From contig JAEUVX010000011.1 of NCBI GenBank assembly GCA_016786615.1, positions 186,001 to 250,000 on the forward strand: DNA of 64,000 nucleotides, written 5' to 3'. Below the pieces are notes generated by a model. That model had not been told where the DNA came from and did not search any database. It saw nothing but the letters and a program-made list of their open reading frames with translations. Each line of letters starts with the position of its first letter. Within the stretch, counting starts at the first letter, position 1. Positions 24,309 through 30,771 of the stretch are shown piece by piece. Position numbers and translations under genes: made by a program. The stretch is from Flavipsychrobacter sp. Lineage in GTDB: Bacteria > Bacteroidota > Bacteroidia > Chitinophagales > Chitinophagaceae.

Positions 24309-24770
24309 ATGTCTGTCTTCAAGCTGGAACGTAAACAACTCATAAGATGCGATATAGATACCCTTTGGGCATTCTTCGCAGATGCACGCAACCTATCTGT
24401 CATTACCCCTGATTATATGAACTTTGTAATAACCTGTGATATACCGAAAGGTGATGTATATGCAGGGCAGGTAATTACCTACAAAGTATCTCCGCTGCTA
24501 GGTATACCACTCAATTGGATGACGGAAATAACCCATGTGGAGCGCAACAAGCATTTTGTGGATGAACAACGAGTAGGCCCATACAAAATGTGGCACCACC
24601 AACACCTCTTCGAGCAAACAGATAAAGGGATTATGATGACCGATATTGTGCATTATCGCTTGCCATTGGGCATTCTTGGCAATATTGCACATGTACTCTT
24701 CGTAAAGAAACAATTACGGGATATATTTGACTATCGGTACCAACAGATAGAAAAGCACTTCAATAAATAA
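24309..24770 (+). CDS. SRPBCC (START/Bet v1-like) ligand-binding protein
   Basis: A 153-residue single-domain protein: N-terminal strand FKLERKQLIRCDIDTLWAFFADARNL, then the PDYM turn and a beta sheet, closing with a C-terminal helix (RDIFDYRYQQIEKHF). This is the SRPBCC/polyketide-cyclase-like helix-grip fold that encloses hydrophobic ligands. No catalytic residues can be named. It is 58 nt upstream of the CarH-like regulator on the same strand, with no terminator between, so the two may be cotranscribed. Genes of this family are often next to carotenoid clusters in Bacteroidota (general knowledge); a carotenoid or isoprenoid ligand is only a guess. Confidence 0.75.
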   Translation: MSVFKLERKQLIRCDIDTLWAFFADARNLSVITPDYMNFVITCDIPKGDVYAGQVITYKVSPLLGIPLNWMTEITHVERNKHFVDEQRVGPYKMWHHQHLFEQTDKGIMMTDIVHYRLPLGILGNIAHVLFVKKQLRDIFDYRYQQIEKHFNK

Positions 24771-24828: not shown

Positions 24829-25713
24829 ATGAATAGGTTCAGCATTAAGGATATAGAAAACCTCACAGGTATCAAGGCGCATACTATACGCATCTGGGAG
24901 CAACGCTATGGCATATTGCAACCCAAACGTACTCCTACTAATATACGCTACTACGATGCGCTGGATCTGAAAACGGCACTACGCATATCGCTCCTCAACA
25001 ATTACGGCTATAAAATTTCCCGTATTCATGAAATGAGTGATGAGGAGATGAACTTGCTCATTCAGAAGATAAATGATAAAGACTTCAAGCTACAGGTACT
25101 TGTCAACGAACTGCTGGAAGCCACACTGGCAATGGATATTGACAAGTTCGAAAAACTTGTCAATGAATACCTGCGAAAGTACGGTATTGAGCAAACTATA
25201 GAACAGCTAGTCTTCAACTTCCTCGAAAAGATTGGCATCATGTGGATGACAGACAGACTTTTCCCTGCACAGGAACACATGGTGAGCAATGTTGTATATC
25301 GCAAACTGGCACTGGCTATAGAAGGCTTGCCAGCCAAAGAAGCAGATGCAGGCCCATCGGTACTATTGTTTTTGCCCGAAGGTGAAATACATGATATAGG
25401 CCTGATGTATGTAAACTACCTGCTGCACAAATACGGCAAAAACCCTATATACCTGGGTGCGAATTCGCCTATCAAAGATGTGAAGATGGTTGTTGAAGCG
25501 AAGCATCCCGACTATCTTTATGTTCACCTCACGTCTGTAGCATCAGACTTTGATGTAAACAAATACATGCAAAAACTACACAATACCTTCCCAAATAGTA
25601 AAATTCTGGTATCGGGTAGTTTGTTGAATGTAACCAAGCAAATACCAGTTAAGAATGTGCAATTCATGTATACATTACAACAAGTAAGAGACGTTCTTAT
25701 AACTTTAAATTAA
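24829..25713 (+). CDS. CarH-like MerR regulator with cobalamin-binding domain
   Basis: Predicted B12-dependent, light-responsive repressor. Numbered from the ATG at 24829 (294 residues): an N-terminal MerR winged helix (RFSIKDIENLTGIKAHTIRIW, then EQRYG), a helical-bundle domain (~95-165), and a C-terminal Rossmann cobalamin domain (~175-290). Two diagnostic CarH motifs are intact: W139-x9-E149-H150, which caps the upper face of adenosylcobalamin, and E186-x-H188-x-x-G, where His is the lower axial ligand. In Thermus and Myxococcus CarH, AdoCbl drives a DNA-binding tetramer in the dark and light breaks it. Here it lies directly upstream of the sigma-crt operon and is closed by its own terminator. 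An in-frame GTG at 24814 is an alternative start. Confidence 0.9.
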   Translation: MNRFSIKDIENLTGIKAHTIRIWEQRYGILQPKRTPTNIRYYDALDLKTALRISLLNNYGYKISRIHEMSDEEMNLLIQKINDKDFKLQVLVNELLEATLAMDIDKFEKLVNEYLRKYGIEQTIEQLVFNFLEKIGIMWMTDRLFPAQEHMVSNVVYRKLALAIEGLPAKEADAGPSVLLFLPEGEIHDIGLMYVNYLLHKYGKNPIYLGANSPIKDVKMVVEAKHPDYLYVHLTSVASDFDVNKYMQKLHNTFPNSKILVSGSLLNVTKQIPVKNVQFMYTLQQVRDVLITLN

Positions 25714-25732
25714 AATGTCTAACTAATTCTCT

Positions 25733-25761
25733 AACAGGCTGAAAATGATTTTCAGCCTGTT
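25733..25761 (+). terminator. Terminator of the CarH-like gene
   Basis: A 12-bp stem AACAGGCTGAAA/TTTCAGCCTGTT (25733-25744 with 25750-25761) followed by TTCTTTA, 19 nt after the stop. It separates the regulator from the sigma-crt transcript. Confidence 0.85.
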
Positions 25762-25794
25762 TTCTTTATATAAGCCTGATTTTCAATAGGTTTT

Positions 25795-25833
25795 ATTTTG
25801 TTTAAGAAAATATCATAAAAGGATAAACAAAAT
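25795..25833. promoter_or_regulatory. Palindrome 1: candidate CarH-type operator
   Basis: Perfect 10-bp inverted repeat ATTTTGTTTA (25795-25804) and TAAACAAAAT (25824-25833), spacer 19 nt, centre 25814. It contains two TTGTTTA half-sites facing each other, with the same geometry as palindrome 2. It lies just downstream of the regulator terminator, upstream of the likely sigma-crt promoter. Confidence 0.55.
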
Positions 25834-25854
25834 CTATTTCGTTGGAATGTGTTC

Positions 25855-25887
25855 TTGTTTAATTTCGTACACACAAAAGTTAAACAA
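25855..25887. promoter_or_regulatory. Palindrome 2: candidate CarH-type operator over the promoter
   Basis: Perfect 8-bp inverted repeat TTGTTTAA (25855-25862) and TTAAACAA (25880-25887), centre 25871. Between the TTGTTTA/TAAACAA cores the spacer is 19 nt, identical to palindrome 1, and the centres are 57 bp apart. It encloses the -7-like box and ends 1 nt before the sigma ATG. Confidence 0.55.
25860..25867 (+). promoter_or_regulatory. -7-like element (TAATTTCG) of the sigma-crt operon
   Basis: TAATTTCG matches TAnnTTTG at all but one fixed position. A TTG at 25842-25844 is 15 bp upstream. It overlaps the left arm and interior of palindrome 2, so a bound repressor would cover it. The predicted transcript start is near 25872, 17 nt before the ATG. 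Confidence 0.35.
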
Positions 25888-25888
25888 T

Positions 25889-26386
25889 ATGACAACGGCA
25901 GATTTTAATTCGATGGTAGTACGTCATAGCGACTTTTTAAGACCTTATGCAGTATCGCTGACGCACGACAATGAAGATGCAAAAGATTTGTTTCAGGAAA
26001 CTATGATGCGCGCATTGCTCAACAGAGAGAAGTATCAGTTTGGTACCAACCTGAAAGCATGGTTATACACCATTATGCGAAACATCTTCATCAACAATTA
26101 CAGGCGTAATAAGAAATTTACCAAAGTAGCAGGTGATGCACCGTCTGAAAATGTAATGTACAATGCAGACAGAACTGCTTATAATGAAGGTTGGCACAAC
26201 GTAAGGCTTAGCGAAGTGAAGAAAGCGGTAGACGACCTGCCACAGGTATTCCGACTTTCTTTTGAGCTGCACTACACCGGATACAAGTATCAGGAAATTG
26301 CTGACCTGCTGAACGAACCATTGGGTACTATAAAAAGCCGTATACATTTTGCACGCAAAATGTTAATGTCAAAATTGGACAGGTAA
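25889..26386 (+). CDS. ECF-type RNA polymerase sigma factor
   Basis: A 165-residue group-IV sigma factor likely to direct RNA polymerase to the carotenoid or stress promoters. Region 2 is visible as LTHDNEDAKDLFQETMMRAL followed by LKAWLYTIMRNIFINNYRR, and region 4 as YQEIADLLNEPLGTIKSRIHFARK. The ATG at 25889 gives the normal ECF N-terminus; an in-frame TTG/GTG-type start 42 nt upstream would overlap palindrome 2. It is the first gene of the apparent crt operon, 30 nt before crtI. No anti-sigma gene adjoins it, so control would be transcriptional, through the palindromes, rather than by sequestration, as far as this window shows. Confidence 0.92.
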   Translation: MTTADFNSMVVRHSDFLRPYAVSLTHDNEDAKDLFQETMMRALLNREKYQFGTNLKAWLYTIMRNIFINNYRRNKKFTKVAGDAPSENVMYNADRTAYNEGWHNVRLSEVKKAVDDLPQVFRLSFELHYTGYKYQEIADLLNEPLGTIKSRIHFARKMLMSKLDR

Positions 26387-26416
26387 AATTTCTTAAATTT
26401 AAACAGTACCCCTGTA

Positions 26417-27895
26417 TTGGAAAAGGTAATCGTTATAGGAAGTGGTTTTGCCGGTTTATCCGCCGCGTGTTTTCTGGCCCAGCAGGGTGCAGATGTAACC
26501 GTTGTGGAAAAGAATGAACAACCTGGAGGCAGAGCAAGGGTTTTCAGGAAGGATGGTTTTGTATTCGATATGGGACCAAGCTGGTACTGGATGCCTGATA
26601 TCTTTGAACGTTTTTTCAATCAGTTTGGCAAATCTGCCAAAGACTATTATACGCTCAAAAGGTTAGACCCATCTTATCGCGTTTTCTGGGATGATGAGGT
26701 TGCTGATATACCTGCAAATTTTACTGAACTACAGGCATTTTTCGATGCTACAGAACAAGGTGCCGGGCAGAAGCTGGAAGCCTTTATGAAAGAAGCTGCC
26801 TACAAGTACGATGCAGGCATTAATAAGTTTGTACACAAACCCGGCTTATCAATATTCGAATTCATGAACTGGGATGTGCTGAGCTCCCTGTTCAAAATAG
26901 ATATGTTCACCTCTATGCACAGCCATGTGCGTAGTTTCTTCAAACACCCTAAGCTGCTGCAACTGACGGAATTTCCCATACTCTTCCTGGGGGCATTACC
27001 ACAAAACACACCCGCACTCTACAGCCTGATGAACTATGCCGATATGAAACTGGGCACATGGTACCCAGACGGTGGCATGGGCAAGATTGTAGATGGTATG
27101 TACGAACTGGCACAGAGCCTTGGTGTACATTTCAAATTCAACGAACCGGTACAGAAGATAAATGCATGGGGCACGGAAGCTACAGGCGTATCTACTGACT
27201 ATGGAGACTATAGCAGTGATGCTGTAGTAGTAGCCTGCGATTATCATCATGCAGATAGCGAGTTACTGTCTGATGAGTTTAAAAACTATACTGAAGAATA
27301 TTGGGGCAATCGCAGCATGGCACCATCGTGTCTGCTATATTACATAGGTTTAAACAAAAAAGCAGATGGACTGCTGCACCACAATCTGTTTTTTGATGCA
27401 CCGTTTGAAAAACATGCAGCTGATTTGTACACTACGCCAAAGTGGCCTGAAAATCCGCTGATGTATGTTTGCTGCCCATCTAAAACAGATGCAACAGTAG
27501 CACCTGAGGGTTGCGAAAACCTCTTTGTGCTGATACCAGTAGCACCAGGCATGGAAGACAACGAGAGTATCAAAGAACACTATTACAAAATCATCATGCG
27601 CAGGCTTGAAAAAAAGCTGGGCACTAATATACAGGATGCAGTAATATACAAACGCAGCTACGCACACAACGACTTTGTAGCAGACTACAACGCATTCAAA
27701 GGCAATGCTTATGGTCTTGCCAACACACTAAAGCAAACGGCCATCTTGAAGCCATCTATCAAAAACAAGAAACTTATTAATCTGTACTATACAGGGCAGC
27801 TTACAGTACCGGGACCGGGTGTTCCGCCATCACTTATTTCGGGCGAAGTGGTGGCCAACCAATTATTGCATCAACTAAAACTAAAAACTACCTGA
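26417..27895 (+). CDS. crtI: Phytoene desaturase (CrtI type)
   Basis: FAD enzyme that desaturates phytoene towards lycopene. The 492-residue protein opens with the dinucleotide-binding VIVIGSGFAGLSAACFLAQQ (GSGFAG at 8-13) and VVEKNEQPGGRARVF, and ends with the bacterial CrtI signature GQLTVPGPGVPPSLISGE. Length and both ends are complete. The only suitable start is TTG at 26417, giving MEKVIVIG; no ATG or GTG lies near the beginning of the conserved fold. Its stop is 2 nt before crtB, so the two are translationally close-coupled. It is the third cistron-scale element after the regulator and sigma factor in the carotenoid locus. Confidence 0.93.
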   Translation: MEKVIVIGSGFAGLSAACFLAQQGADVTVVEKNEQPGGRARVFRKDGFVFDMGPSWYWMPDIFERFFNQFGKSAKDYYTLKRLDPSYRVFWDDEVADIPANFTELQAFFDATEQGAGQKLEAFMKEAAYKYDAGINKFVHKPGLSIFEFMNWDVLSSLFKIDMFTSMHSHVRSFFKHPKLLQLTEFPILFLGALPQNTPALYSLMNYADMKLGTWYPDGGMGKIVDGMYELAQSLGVHFKFNEPVQKINAWGTEATGVSTDYGDYSSDAVVVACDYHHADSELLSDEFKNYTEEYWGNRSMAPSCLLYYIGLNKKADGLLHHNLFFDAPFEKHAADLYTTPKWPENPLMYVCCPSKTDATVAPEGCENLFVLIPVAPGMEDNESIKEHYYKIIMRRLEKKLGTNIQDAVIYKRSYAHNDFVADYNAFKGNAYGLANTLKQTAILKPSIKNKKLINLYYTGQLTVPGPGVPPSLISGEVVANQLLHQLKLKTT

Positions 27896-27897
27896 CT

Positions 27898-28737
27898 ATG
27901 ATATCGCTATTTCATAAAGTGTGCCATGAGTGTAGTGAGGCGGTAACGAAGCGATACAGCACTTCGTTTTCCAGTGCCATCAAACTGCTGCATAAAGACT
28001 TGCGTGCTCCTATATTCGATATCTATGGTTTTGTACGATTTGCCGATGAGATTGTTGATACCTTTCATGATTATGATAAGGAAACACTACTGACTGACTT
28101 TGAAGCTGAAACATGGAAAGCTATAAAAACAGGTATCAGCCTCAATCCTATACTACACAGCTTTCAGCATGTGGTGCGCAAATACAACATACCACACGAC
28201 CTGATAGTTGCTTTCCTGCACAGTATGCGCCTCGACCTTAATAAGACCGATTATAAAACCGCTCACGAACTCAATGAATACGTGTATGGTTCTGCAGAGG
28301 TGGTAGGCCTAATGTGCCTTTGTGTTTTCTGCGAAGGAGATATGCAACAGTATGAGGCATTGAAAGGAGAAGCAAGAAGCCTTGGTGCTGCATTTCAGAA
28401 AATTAACTTCCTGCGCGATATACAAGCAGATTACAACAACCTGAATCGCACGTATTTCCCCGACTTTGATTTCTATCGCTTTGACCAACACACAAAGCAA
28501 CGTATAGAAGAAGATATTGAAAAAGACTTTGCTGCTGCACTGGAAGGCGTCCGCAAACTACCTTGGAAAGCACGCTTTGGTGTGTACACCGCATACAGAT
28601 ACTACTATGCACTATTCGAAAAAATAAAAGGTATGCAACCCGCAAGTGTACTACAGCAGCGTGTTCGTGTGCCCGATTATCAAAAAGCATTCATCATCTT
28701 TTCGGCGAGCCTCAATAACCGTCTGAACATGATATAA
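27898..28737 (+). CDS. crtB: Phytoene synthase
   Basis: Condenses two geranylgeranyl diphosphates to phytoene, the entry step of C40 carotenoids. The 279-residue protein has both Mg2+-diphosphate motifs: DEIVD at 50-54 within YGFVRFADEIVDTFHD, and FLRDIQAD at 171-178 within KINFLRDIQADYNNLNR. The helical prenyl-synthase fold and the length fit CrtB rather than squalene synthase, and the neighbours confirm it. It lies 2 nt after crtI and 11 nt before idi. Confidence 0.95.
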   Translation: MISLFHKVCHECSEAVTKRYSTSFSSAIKLLHKDLRAPIFDIYGFVRFADEIVDTFHDYDKETLLTDFEAETWKAIKTGISLNPILHSFQHVVRKYNIPHDLIVAFLHSMRLDLNKTDYKTAHELNEYVYGSAEVVGLMCLCVFCEGDMQQYEALKGEARSLGAAFQKINFLRDIQADYNNLNRTYFPDFDFYRFDQHTKQRIEEDIEKDFAAALEGVRKLPWKARFGVYTAYRYYYALFEKIKGMQPASVLQQRVRVPDYQKAFIIFSASLNNRLNMI

Positions 28738-28748
28738 ACCTGAGGAGC

Positions 28749-29288
28749 ATGTTGTACGATAAAAACAACGTTATAATTGTAAACGAGAAAGACGAATGGC
28801 TTGGTACTATGGAGAAACTGCAGGCTCATAAAGAAGGAATACTCCATAGGGCATTTTCAGTATTCGTAGTGAATGGCAAAAACGAATTGCTGCTGCAACA
28901 ACGTGCAGAGGATAAATATCATTCCGGTGGGCTGTGGAGCAACACATGCTGCTCTCACCCTGCACCGGGCGAAAGCACTACTGCCGCAGCACACAGAAGG
29001 CTGCAGGAAGAAATGGGCTTTGACTGTGACATTGAAAAAATATTCGAGCTCCGTTATAAATCAGATGTAGGAAACGGGCTGATAGAAAACGAATACGACC
29101 ATATATTTATCGGCTATCACAATGACGAAGCGACTATTAATACTGCCGAAGCAAAAGACGCTAAGTTCATATCTATAGATGCACTGCAAATTTGGATGCA
29201 GCAGGAACCGAATGCGTTTACAGCATGGTTTCATTTAGCCATGCCAAGGTTTATAGACTACCTTACACAACAAGAAAAAGCTGCCTGA
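28749..29288 (+). CDS. idi: Isopentenyl-diphosphate delta-isomerase, type I
   Basis: Interconverts IPP and DMAPP, feeding the prenyl pathway used by CrtB. The 179-residue Nudix-fold protein has the type I catalytic Cys in NTCCSHPAPGES, the Nudix-like helix AAHRRLQEEMGF and the catalytic Glu in NEYDHIF. The ATG at 28749 follows a GAGGAG stretch, one of the clearer ribosome-binding sites in the window. Its place inside the crt operon implies that precursor supply is raised together with carotenoid synthesis. Confidence 0.95.
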   Translation: MLYDKNNVIIVNEKDEWLGTMEKLQAHKEGILHRAFSVFVVNGKNELLLQQRAEDKYHSGGLWSNTCCSHPAPGESTTAAAHRRLQEEMGFDCDIEKIFELRYKSDVGNGLIENEYDHIFIGYHNDEATINTAEAKDAKFISIDALQIWMQQEPNAFTAWFHLAMPRFIDYLTQQEKAA

Positions 29289-29292
29289 TATT

Positions 29293-30771
29293 TTGAGTAC
29301 ATCTTCCAAGAAAGCCATCATCATAGGTTCAGGGATAGCGGGGCTTGCAAGTGCTGCAAGGCTGGCATCAAGAGGCTATGATGTACATGTATTTGAGAAA
29401 AACGATTTCTTCGGTGGCAAGCTGGCACTGCATGTGCAGGACGGTTATTCCTTCGATATGGGGCCTTCTATCTTTACACAACCTTTTGTACTGGAAGACC
29501 TTTTCAATTTCTGCGGCAAAGAATTCAGCGACTATTTCCGCTATCAAAATCTTGCCATCAACACACACAATTTTTTTAACGATGGCACAGAGATAATTGC
29601 CTACAAAGGCAAAGAGAAATTTGTTGCTGAGATAAAGAAGAAACTTAACATAGATACAACTCGTCTTGAAAAATATCTGCTGGAAGCTGAGCGTATGTAT
29701 AACGATATAGGCAAGATATTTCTTGACGAACATATACACGACCTACAAACGTGGACAACAGCACGCATACCCAAAGCATTGAAAGCGCTTAAGTGGCAAT
29801 ACCTGCTGAAGTCTATGCACGACTATCACAAGCAAAAGCTGCAACATCCCAAACTGGTGCAGATGTTCGATAGGTTTGCAACCTACAATGGTTCCAATCC
29901 ATTTGAAGCACCTGCCATGCTGAGTATGATAGCGCATCTGGAAATGAATGATGGTGCTTACTACCCCGAAGGCGGCATGATAAGCATACCCAATGCAGTG
30001 TACAAACTTTGTAACGATCTTGGTGTTCATTTTCATTTCAACAGCAAAGCAGAACGGATACTTACGGAGGGCAACAAGGCAAAGGGCATTGTAGCAAATG
30101 GCAAAGAACATCTTGCAGACATTGTTGTTACCAATAGCGATGTTTTCTACAGTTACAACGATTTGTTGCAAGACAAAGAAAAAGGCACAAGTATCGGCAA
30201 GATGGAACGCAGTACCAGCGCCATGATATTCTACTGGGGTATCAATAAAGAATACCGACAATTAGGGCTGCACAATCTTTTCTTTTCAGACAATTACAAA
30301 GAAGATTTTGAATATACCTGCAAGCACAAGAAACCATACCATGACCCTACTATATACATCAACATTACATCAAAAATGGAAGCTCAACATGCACCTGCAG
30401 GTTGCGAAAACTGGTTTGTATTTATAAACAAACCTGCAATCATAGAAGCGAATGAAAATGATGTAACTGCCGGAATCAAAAAATATACCATTGCAAAGCT
30501 GAGCCGTATGCTTGGAGAGGATATTACACCGCATATAGCAACAGAGCATACGCTCACACCAACATCTATACAAAGTCGTACCAATAGCTATCTGGGTGCA
30601 TTATATGGTACAGCATCTAACAATAAGATGGCGGCCTTCAAAAGGCACAGCAATGTATCTCCTACATATAAGGGCTTGTATTTTGCAGGCGGCAGTGTAC
30701 ACCCTGGTGGTGGCATACCACTATGTCTGCGCTCTGCAAAGCTTGCAGTAGATAAGATATTAGTGGGTTAG
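29293..30771 (+). CDS. CrtD-like carotenoid desaturase (second CrtI-family enzyme)
   Basis: FAD-dependent carotenoid desaturase. The 492-residue protein begins SSKKAIIIGSGIAGLASAAR and has VFEKNDFFGGKLALH, and ends with YFAGGSVHPGGGIPLCLRSA, the C-terminal form typical of CrtD-type 3,4-desaturases rather than of phytoene desaturase, which has PGPGVPPS. Expected substrate: an acyclic or 1-hydroxylated end group; this is inferred, since no CruF/CrtC hydratase is present in the window. The start is TTG at 29293, 4 nt after idi. Its stop overlaps the stop of the convergent beta-helix gene. A CrtN/CrtO-like role cannot be excluded. Confidence 0.82.
   Translation: MSTSSKKAIIIGSGIAGLASAARLASRGYDVHVFEKNDFFGGKLALHVQDGYSFDMGPSIFTQPFVLEDLFNFCGKEFSDYFRYQNLAINTHNFFNDGTEIIAYKGKEKFVAEIKKKLNIDTTRLEKYLLEAERMYNDIGKIFLDEHIHDLQTWTTARIPKALKALKWQYLLKSMHDYHKQKLQHPKLVQMFDRFATYNGSNPFEAPAMLSMIAHLEMNDGAYYPEGGMISIPNAVYKLCNDLGVHFHFNSKAERILTEGNKAKGIVANGKEHLADIVVTNSDVFYSYNDLLQDKEKGTSIGKMERSTSAMIFYWGINKEYRQLGLHNLFFSDNYKEDFEYTCKHKKPYHDPTIYINITSKMEAQHAPAGCENWFVFINKPAIIEANENDVTAGIKKYTIAKLSRMLGEDITPHIATEHTLTPTSIQSRTNSYLGALYGTASNNKMAAFKRHSNVSPTYKGLYFAGGSVHPGGGIPLCLRSAKLAVDKILVG

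Follow-up and report, generated by a model that had tools for sequence, protein, structure and literature searches.

A CarH-like B12-binding MerR protein and two candidate inverted-repeat operators in front of an ECF sigma-carotenoid operon of Flavipsychrobacter sp.

The regulator gene and its carotenoid neighborhood

The locus described here raises the question of whether two matched palindromes in front of a carotenoid operon are the sites through which a neighboring B12-binding MerR protein controls that operon. It lies in a window of 64,000 nucleotides (the whole stretch of Flavipsychrobacter sp. DNA that was analyzed; contig JAEUVX010000011.1, positions 186,001 to 250,000), in which the B12-MerR regulator gene adjoins genes for an ECF sigma factor and for carotenoid synthesis. 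All genes of the locus are located on the plus strand, in the order regulator gene, hairpin, palindromes, and an operon of ECF sigma, crtI, crtB, idi, and a crtD-like gene (25889-30771). We consider it quite probable that the palindromes are operators of the adjacent CarH-like protein, at which it would shut off the sigma-crt operon in the dark.

The first gene of the operon (25889-26386) encodes the ECF sigma factor (Pfam Sigma70_r2 1.1e-16, Sigma70_r4_2 3.4e-9) and is followed by crtI (26417-27895), whose product is of the bifunctional phytoene desaturase/3,4-desaturase type (NCBIfam NF058655, 748.6 bits at a cut-off of 640), crtB (27898-28737), encoding a member of the squalene/phytoene synthase family (Pfam SQS_PSY 7.4e-47) for which no NCBIfam equivalog scored at or over its cut-off, idi (28749-29288) for isopentenyl-diphosphate isomerase (NCBIfam NF002995, 157.5 bits, cut-off 127), and a gene for a crtD-like 1-hydroxycarotenoid 3,4-desaturase (29293-30771; NCBIfam NF042421, 518.8 bits, cut-off 500). 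In front of merR stands a gene for a small protein (24309-24770) without a Pfam or NCBIfam match, whose product we take to be SRPBCC-like. Seven further close loci (L064, L065, L067-L071) have a gene of this type in front of merR, and in L160, L176, L177, L178, and L180 it stands behind the crt operon; judged by gene neighborhood, it is a conserved partner of the crt cluster.

The original prediction had described a CarH-like protein beside a sigma-crt operon, with a terminator of its own and with W-x9-EH and E-x-H-x-x-G motifs, and each of these elements was recovered. The regulator gene (24829-25713, 294 aa) is followed by an intrinsic terminator-like hairpin with a 13-bp stem and a T-rich tail (25733-25761). 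Its product scores above the Pfam gathering scores for MerR_1 (1.6e-13) and B12-binding_2 (3.2e-11) and below that for B12-binding (26.4 vs. 32.1). The best solved relatives are structures of Thermus CarH (3whp/5c8d; E ~1e-23 by sequence, 6e-27 by profile), and the top Foldseek match of the AF2 model (pLDDT 93) is a chain of the Thermus CarH:DNA complex (E 1e-13). Compared over the whole chain, the model and Thermus CarH reach a TM of 0.50 at an rmsd of 12, since the domains match and their mutual placing differs, and the B12 domains of photocobilin, CarH, methionine synthase, and CtMerR score equally by Z. The four-helix bundle plus Rossmann cobalamin-binding domain by which a CarH is recognized is present. 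In the recognition helix RxWExRY, R21, W23, E24, and R26 are invariant and Y27 is conserved in at least 90% (43 aligned of 128 proteins). The comparison covered 128 protein loci and 36 sigma-centered loci, and 70 of the 128 protein loci have the sigma gene within 3.5 kb; the proteins from sigma-linked loci cluster in one branch (support 80), where they account for 69 of 76 rows. A separate branch holds 32 B12-MerR paralogues without a crt or sigma neighbor (e.g., L138, L139, L141-L148, L156-L159), and Pro takes the place of the ExHxxG Gly in 29 of the 45 neighborless loci.

The W-x9-EH motif (W139, E149, H150; 25243-25278) is shared by the window protein and 66 of its 70 sigma-linked relatives, the Trp by 69 of 70. 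The lower-ligand His of the E-x-H-x-x-G motif (E186, H188, G191; 25384-25401) is kept in 68 of 70. Other positions depart from Thermus thermophilus CarH (TtCarH), in which His132 serves as a ligand in the light state; the bis-His state is shared by many, though not all, CarH proteins. In the window protein the equivalent residue, directly after the Trp, is Met140. His stands there in only 3 of 70 relatives and is absent from 67, mostly in favor of Leu, Gln, Met, Ile, or Val. The Ser of SxV/T is replaced by His in the window protein and 68 of 70 relatives (codons 233-263, 25525-25617) and the first Gly of GG by Ser in the window protein and 65 of 70, with these columns placed by counting 41 residues, as the profile alignment to TtCarH stops before them. 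None of the 128 proteins carries the full signature ExHx2Gx41SxV/Tx22-27GG. Both exchanges would possibly alter the pocket for the nucleotide tail. The R176-D201 pair of the TtCarH dimer is likewise missing, its place being taken by I187-N212; in the 70 relatives, the five most frequent residues at 176 do not include Arg, and Asp occurs at 201 in 7. The equivalent of TtCarH G192 is kept in 63 of 70. The NCBIfam CarH equivalog TransRegCarH gives 105.2 bits against a cut-off of 400. As the definition in PMC8156234 asks for both signatures and the B12 signature is incomplete here, we do not file the protein as CarH. Judged by its sequence, it is CarH-like, and it most likely works as CarH does. 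The genome also encodes a cobalamin adenosyltransferase (E 1.7e-65), through which AdoCbl could be formed from imported cobalamin.

It might be that the protein binds the palindromes as a B12 or redox/oxygen sensor that light does not release, given that it lacks the His132 switch ligand. The rarity of this His in the branch and the altered Ser and GG positions speak for such a sensor, and TtCarH H132A mostly stays tetrameric after light, a point on which an earlier report differs (PMC10442372). We nevertheless regard this reading as unlikely: CtMerR of Chloracidobacterium thermophilum, likewise a B12-binding MerR protein without the His132 ligand and with a B12 domain of apparently similar fold in the structure search with the AF2 model, has Arg at this place and still photolyses AdoCbl, and the His132 position also varies in other cobalamin photoreceptors (PMC11796333). 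CtMerR suggests that a cobalamin photoreceptor can work without a bis-His state (PMC11796333). In addition, the putative target operon is one for carotenoid synthesis, and the adenosyl-capping Trp-Glu-His is among the features that 66 of the 70 relatives keep.

Two palindromes over a promoter-like region

The sequence TTGTTTA-N19-TAAACAA occurs twice, with exact arms that recur in the aligned relatives, between the hairpin and the sigma gene. Palindrome 1 (25798-25830; arms 25798-25804 and 25824-25830) is the upstream candidate operator, and palindrome 2 (25855-25887; arms 25855-25861 and 25881-25887) is a candidate promoter operator that abuts the sigma gene. Each has a 19-nt core; the centers are located at 25814 and 25871, 57 bp apart, and a single nucleotide separates the end of palindrome 2 from the sigma ATG (25889). 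All coordinates, core lengths, and distances given in the original prediction hold exactly, and the likely -7 box also lies where it had been placed: TAATTTCG (25860-25867, plus strand), which fits the family consensus and the Bacteroidota primary-sigma -7 consensus TAnnTTTG (PMC7366714, PMC6847099), overlaps the left arm of palindrome 2 and is the probable -7 box of a primary-sigma promoter. A -33 box is weak in the window (TTTC at 25837-25840), and among the 61 of 77 CarH-positive promoters with TAnnTTT[GA] only 15 have TTTG 20-21 nt from the -7 box, so that a -33 box was rejected as poorly supported.

The repeats might have occurred equally often elsewhere by chance. However, the exact pattern has only two matches in the 2.96-Mb genome, both at this locus, and the reversed-pattern control has none. 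A wider regulon in the same genome was rejected: allowing up to 2 mismatches, there are 53 matches vs. 52 for the control, and therefore no other site can be distinguished from chance.

Each palindrome holds two facing TnnACA copies, the centers of the 11-bp half-sites being 22 bp apart, which would let two DNA-binding domains related by two-fold symmetry bind from the same side of the helix. Palindrome 2 occupies the -7 box and the sequence between it and the start codon, and palindrome 1 precedes the -33 region, so that RNA polymerase would be excluded from the sigma-crtI-crtB-idi-crtD promoter when both are filled. Since palindrome 2 spans the -7 box through to the start codon, repression of the sigma-crt operon is likely. 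By analogy with the CarH family, the AdoCbl-bound protein would bind in the dark, and light would break the Co-C bond, upon which the protein would release the DNA and carotenoids would be made; the presumed dark and light roles, the oligomer, and the AdoCbl dependence all derive from that comparison. The sigma factor may then amplify expression of crt or other genes, which is the weakest step of the model.

The protein could also be an activator in the light rather than a simple repressor, as LitR is reported to be on litS in Streptomyces, where the same wiring of B12-type MerR protein, ECF sigma factor, and crt genes is found and activated LitR promotes litS transcription (PMC12705666). Here, the corresponding control of the sigma factor is suggested by gene order. 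The two systems differ in that sigma-LitS acts on a separate crtE promoter, whereas in the window sigma and crt genes share one operon and operator, and in that LitR is described as activating in the light, whereas repression is proposed here. A protein on palindrome 2 would cover the -7 box together with the leader as far as the start codon and would hinder rather than assist the polymerase, and for LitR, too, a repressor function in the dark is mentioned (PMC12705666). We therefore hold activation to be quite improbable and keep to repression by the CarH-like protein.

Distribution of the palindrome and the regulator in related genomes

Palindrome, protein, and sigma factor were each sought in the same family set of 147 genomes. 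The exact N19 palindrome was found in 48, the CarH-like protein in 93 (E 1e-20), and the operon's sigma factor in 103 of them (E 1e-25); one genome (G055, L242) encodes six relatives of the sigma factor at E below 1e-25. Altogether there are 69 exact N19 places, 47 within 2 kb of a CarH or sigma gene and 22 elsewhere, the latter number not exceeding the 29 obtained with the reversed pattern. A scan of spacers from 0 to 39 with up to 1 mismatch, which serves as its own control, gave N18 in 21 and N19 in 53 of the 77 CarH-positive promoters, N17 and N20 in none, and every other spacer in at most 6. An N19-only site was thus rejected, N18 being a second real class.

An N19 site with up to 2 mismatches in 14 positions stands no more than 75 bp from the sigma ATG in 63 of the 77 promoters with a CarH-like match of at least 200 bits vs. 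3 of the 26 others; when N18 sites and distances up to 90 bp are counted, the numbers are 74 of 77 vs. 3 of 26. Because the 200-bit line was chosen after the table had been seen, the genomes were also sorted by tree clade. In this second sorting, an N18 or N19 site (up to 2 mismatches, within 90 bp of the ATG) is present in 72 of 75 genomes with the clade protein and in 5 of 28 without it. Fisher p values are 1.7e-10 for the N19 count at the 200-bit line and 4e-15 for the clade sorting, the genomes being related and not independent samples. In each of three genera (g9, g36, and g51), the clade protein is present in one genome and absent from another, and the site goes with the protein every time; a fourth such contrast (genus g7) was dropped, as the G106 protein belongs to another branch. 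The clade protein occurs without the site in G085, in G111, where a site with 2 mismatches stands at -94, and in G036, whose protein has a very long branch in the tree. The reverse is found in G112 (69% complete), G122 (85% complete), G023 (site at a contig end), and G078, where a CarH-like gene of another branch lies 1 kb away. The true exception is G106 (L139, L243), 99% complete and in one contig, which keeps the operator at its sigma gene, its sole CarH match being an unlinked 553-aa protein of another branch; its regulator may have been lost or changed.

A second, named collection of 80 loci, which shares some genomes with the family set and is not fully independent of it, contains 63 sigma-linked loci, of which 58 have a site within 60 bp of the ATG, 4 have it further up, and 1 has none. 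A site is also seen in 2 of the 17 loci whose stretch has no sigma gene. The collection spans Sediminibacterium, Ferruginibacter, Lacibacter, Hydrotalea, and Flavisolibacter and, outside Chitinophagales, Algoriphagus, Pontibacter, Roseivirga, and Cyclobacteriaceae (in the NCBI taxonomy, Sediminibacterium belongs to Chitinophagales, and Algoriphagus and Pontibacter to Cytophagales). The nearest named relative of the window protein, 97% identical and from a Chitinophagales metagenome bin (L294), is encoded beside both palindromes, one of them with 1 mismatch. The sites, their tight link to the protein clade, and their position over a promoter-like box can be read from the DNA directly. The palindromes thus do precede orthologous operons, the two-site plan proposed for them is conserved in both collections, and two operators facing the sigma-crt operon are supported by the site-protein link and the position over the promoter-like box. 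The pairing of operator and regulator is, on this evidence, very likely.

In order of genes, the palindrome accompanies the first gene of the crt operon, whichever gene leads. It is found in 11 of 13 merR-crt loci without a sigma gene in between (L149 and L153 have no site; control spacers N15/N16, 0 of 13). Eight of these 11 have it before merR, 7 at 0-4 nt and 1 at 20 nt from the start codon, with an additional site behind merR in 3 of these eight; in the other 3 of the 11, among them L126, it stands only between merR and crtI. The 45 merR loci without a crt or sigma neighbor yield 2 upstream sites and 1 downstream site, one of these three loci belonging to the sigma-linked clade. Within 170 bp of merR, 20 of the 70 sigma-linked loci have a palindrome copy on the upstream side and 55 have one on the downstream side, compared with 2 and 6 of 70 for the control spacers. 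The upstream copy, of which the window has none, often stands about 27 bp before the ATG (e.g., L090, L091, and L095 among L063-L190) and suggests self-control in part of the family.

That the palindrome is a promoter element of the ECF sigma factor itself or the site of a third factor might be thought from its place at the sigma promoter in most loci and from G106, which has site and sigma gene without the clade protein. However, of the 21 sigma genes from genomes lacking a CarH match, 20 have no palindrome (the remaining genome being the one of 69% completeness), and 11 of the 13 merR-crt loci just described carry it without an adjoining sigma gene, which makes this very improbable. As the site tracks the clade protein and heads operons that begin with merR or crtI, it is most likely the operator of the CarH-like protein and not of the sigma factor.

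An alignment of 66 copies of palindrome 2 shows the left arm leading into TAnnTTTG. Palindrome 1 (40 aligned copies with up to 3 mismatches) lies 53-58 bp upstream and has a weaker TTT at the position of the box, so the promoter does not account for its arms. Several loci headed by merR carry TAnnTTTG a few bases inward, within the core, and retain the same arms. It is thus hardly credible that the repeats merely reflect promoter boxes and an A-rich start-codon context (the left arm of palindrome 2 overlaps TAnnTTTG, its right arm is A-rich beside the ATG, and A at -3 aids initiation in Bacteroidota; PMC6847099) or an RNA hairpin, since palindrome 1 lies upstream of the promoter box, the distance from palindrome 2 to the ATG varies from 1 to 10 nt in 65 of 66 copies (18 in one) with the arm unchanged, only 3 of the 26 promoters with weak or no CarH match have the palindrome vs. 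19 with TAnnTTT[GA], and no Rfam family matched at its gathering score.

Geometry of the candidate operators and comparison with known systems

The half-sites had been thought to match no described CarH site, which does not hold. Published CarH proteins read a tandem 11-bp repeat, nAnnTnnACAn or nnnnTnnACAn (PMC8156234, PMC9304148); all four half-sites of the window contain its hexamer TnnACA, which is included in TAAACAA, and both half-sites of palindrome 2 match the whole of nAnnTnnACAn. As a general feature, the A at position 2 was rejected, since it occurs in 2 of 4 half-sites and is weak in palindrome 1 of the family. The difference lies in the geometry, with inverted TnnACA pairs and not tandem 11-bp direct repeats. 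In a scan of the 77 promoters for the hexamer alone, inverted pairs 24 and 25 bp apart were found in 18 and 64 promoters, and everted pairs 31 or 32 bp apart, which correspond to the gap between the palindromes, in 25 and 17. Direct spacing of 11 bp occurs in 6 of 77, within the range of 0-8 for other direct distances, and does not point to a tandem direct-repeat operator; inverted spacing of 25 bp was seen in 3 of the 26 other promoters. Because the hexamer pairs are inverted at 24 or 25 bp and rarely direct at 11 bp, the DNA-reading head looks CarH-like and the operator arrangement does not. The 33-bp palindrome would equal three 11-bp repeats in length, the first of them being reversed, and its half-site centers would be 21-22 bp, i.e., two helical turns, apart.

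A single constant distance between the two palindromes was rejected. Among 174 distinct promoters, 74 pairs are 54-58 bp, 9 are 43-46 bp, and 9 are 62-64.5 bp apart, and six further distances range from 10.5 to 117.5 bp. Since these are no clean multiples of the helical turn, we make no claim of looping. The classes of about 44, 56, and 63 bp seem bound to lineages, for instance in Algoriphagus (L350, L351, L357, L368, L369) and Pontibacter (L354, L355, L363).

The window protein shares with CarH of T. thermophilus and Bacillus megaterium the two-domain fold, Wx9EH, ExHxxG, and the contact hexamer TnnACA (PMC8156234, PMC9304148), as well as an operator over a carotenoid promoter, which is here a predicted one. 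The operators of those proteins consist of three or four tandem 11-bp direct repeats, whereas here they are inverted pairs with N18 or N19, and unlike TtCarH the window protein has neither His132 nor the SxV/T Ser, the first Gly of GG, or the R176-D201 pair. The parallel drawn earlier to two palindromes in Myxococcus is weak. As in the CarH/CarA systems of Myxococcales, a carotenoid promoter has two operator parts, and the CarA site was initially taken to consist of two inverted repeats, but the sites of Myxococcales have also been read as 11-bp direct repeats and pseudo-repeats (PMC9304148), and their plan varies by species, whereas N18/N19 is constant across the relatives examined here. Tentatively, and with more doubt than confidence, we propose that one separate branch of B12 light receptors is common to Chitinophagales and Cytophagales, and that its members would bind inverted hexamers as a symmetric dimer, dispense with the bis-His state, and have a remodeled tail pocket; as part of the same tentative proposal, pairs of dimers would occupy the two palindromes, and the ligand may perhaps be a cobamide other than B12.

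Among the literature matches listed, to which subscription journals contributed little, there is no regulator for the light control of Bacteroidota carotenoids, and the matches listed likewise describe neither a Bacteroidota CarH operator nor an operator of the present layout for this sensor family. In Chryseobacterium lacus, light-induced carotenoids were found and no car or lit genes (PMC7064467). The locus thus offers a concrete predicted regulator-operator pair in a large bacterial group. It raises the question of how one DNA-reading domain and one hexamer may serve both tandem and inverted operators, as well as the question of how release by light would run without His132, and the 33-bp palindrome could be used as a compact optogenetic operator.
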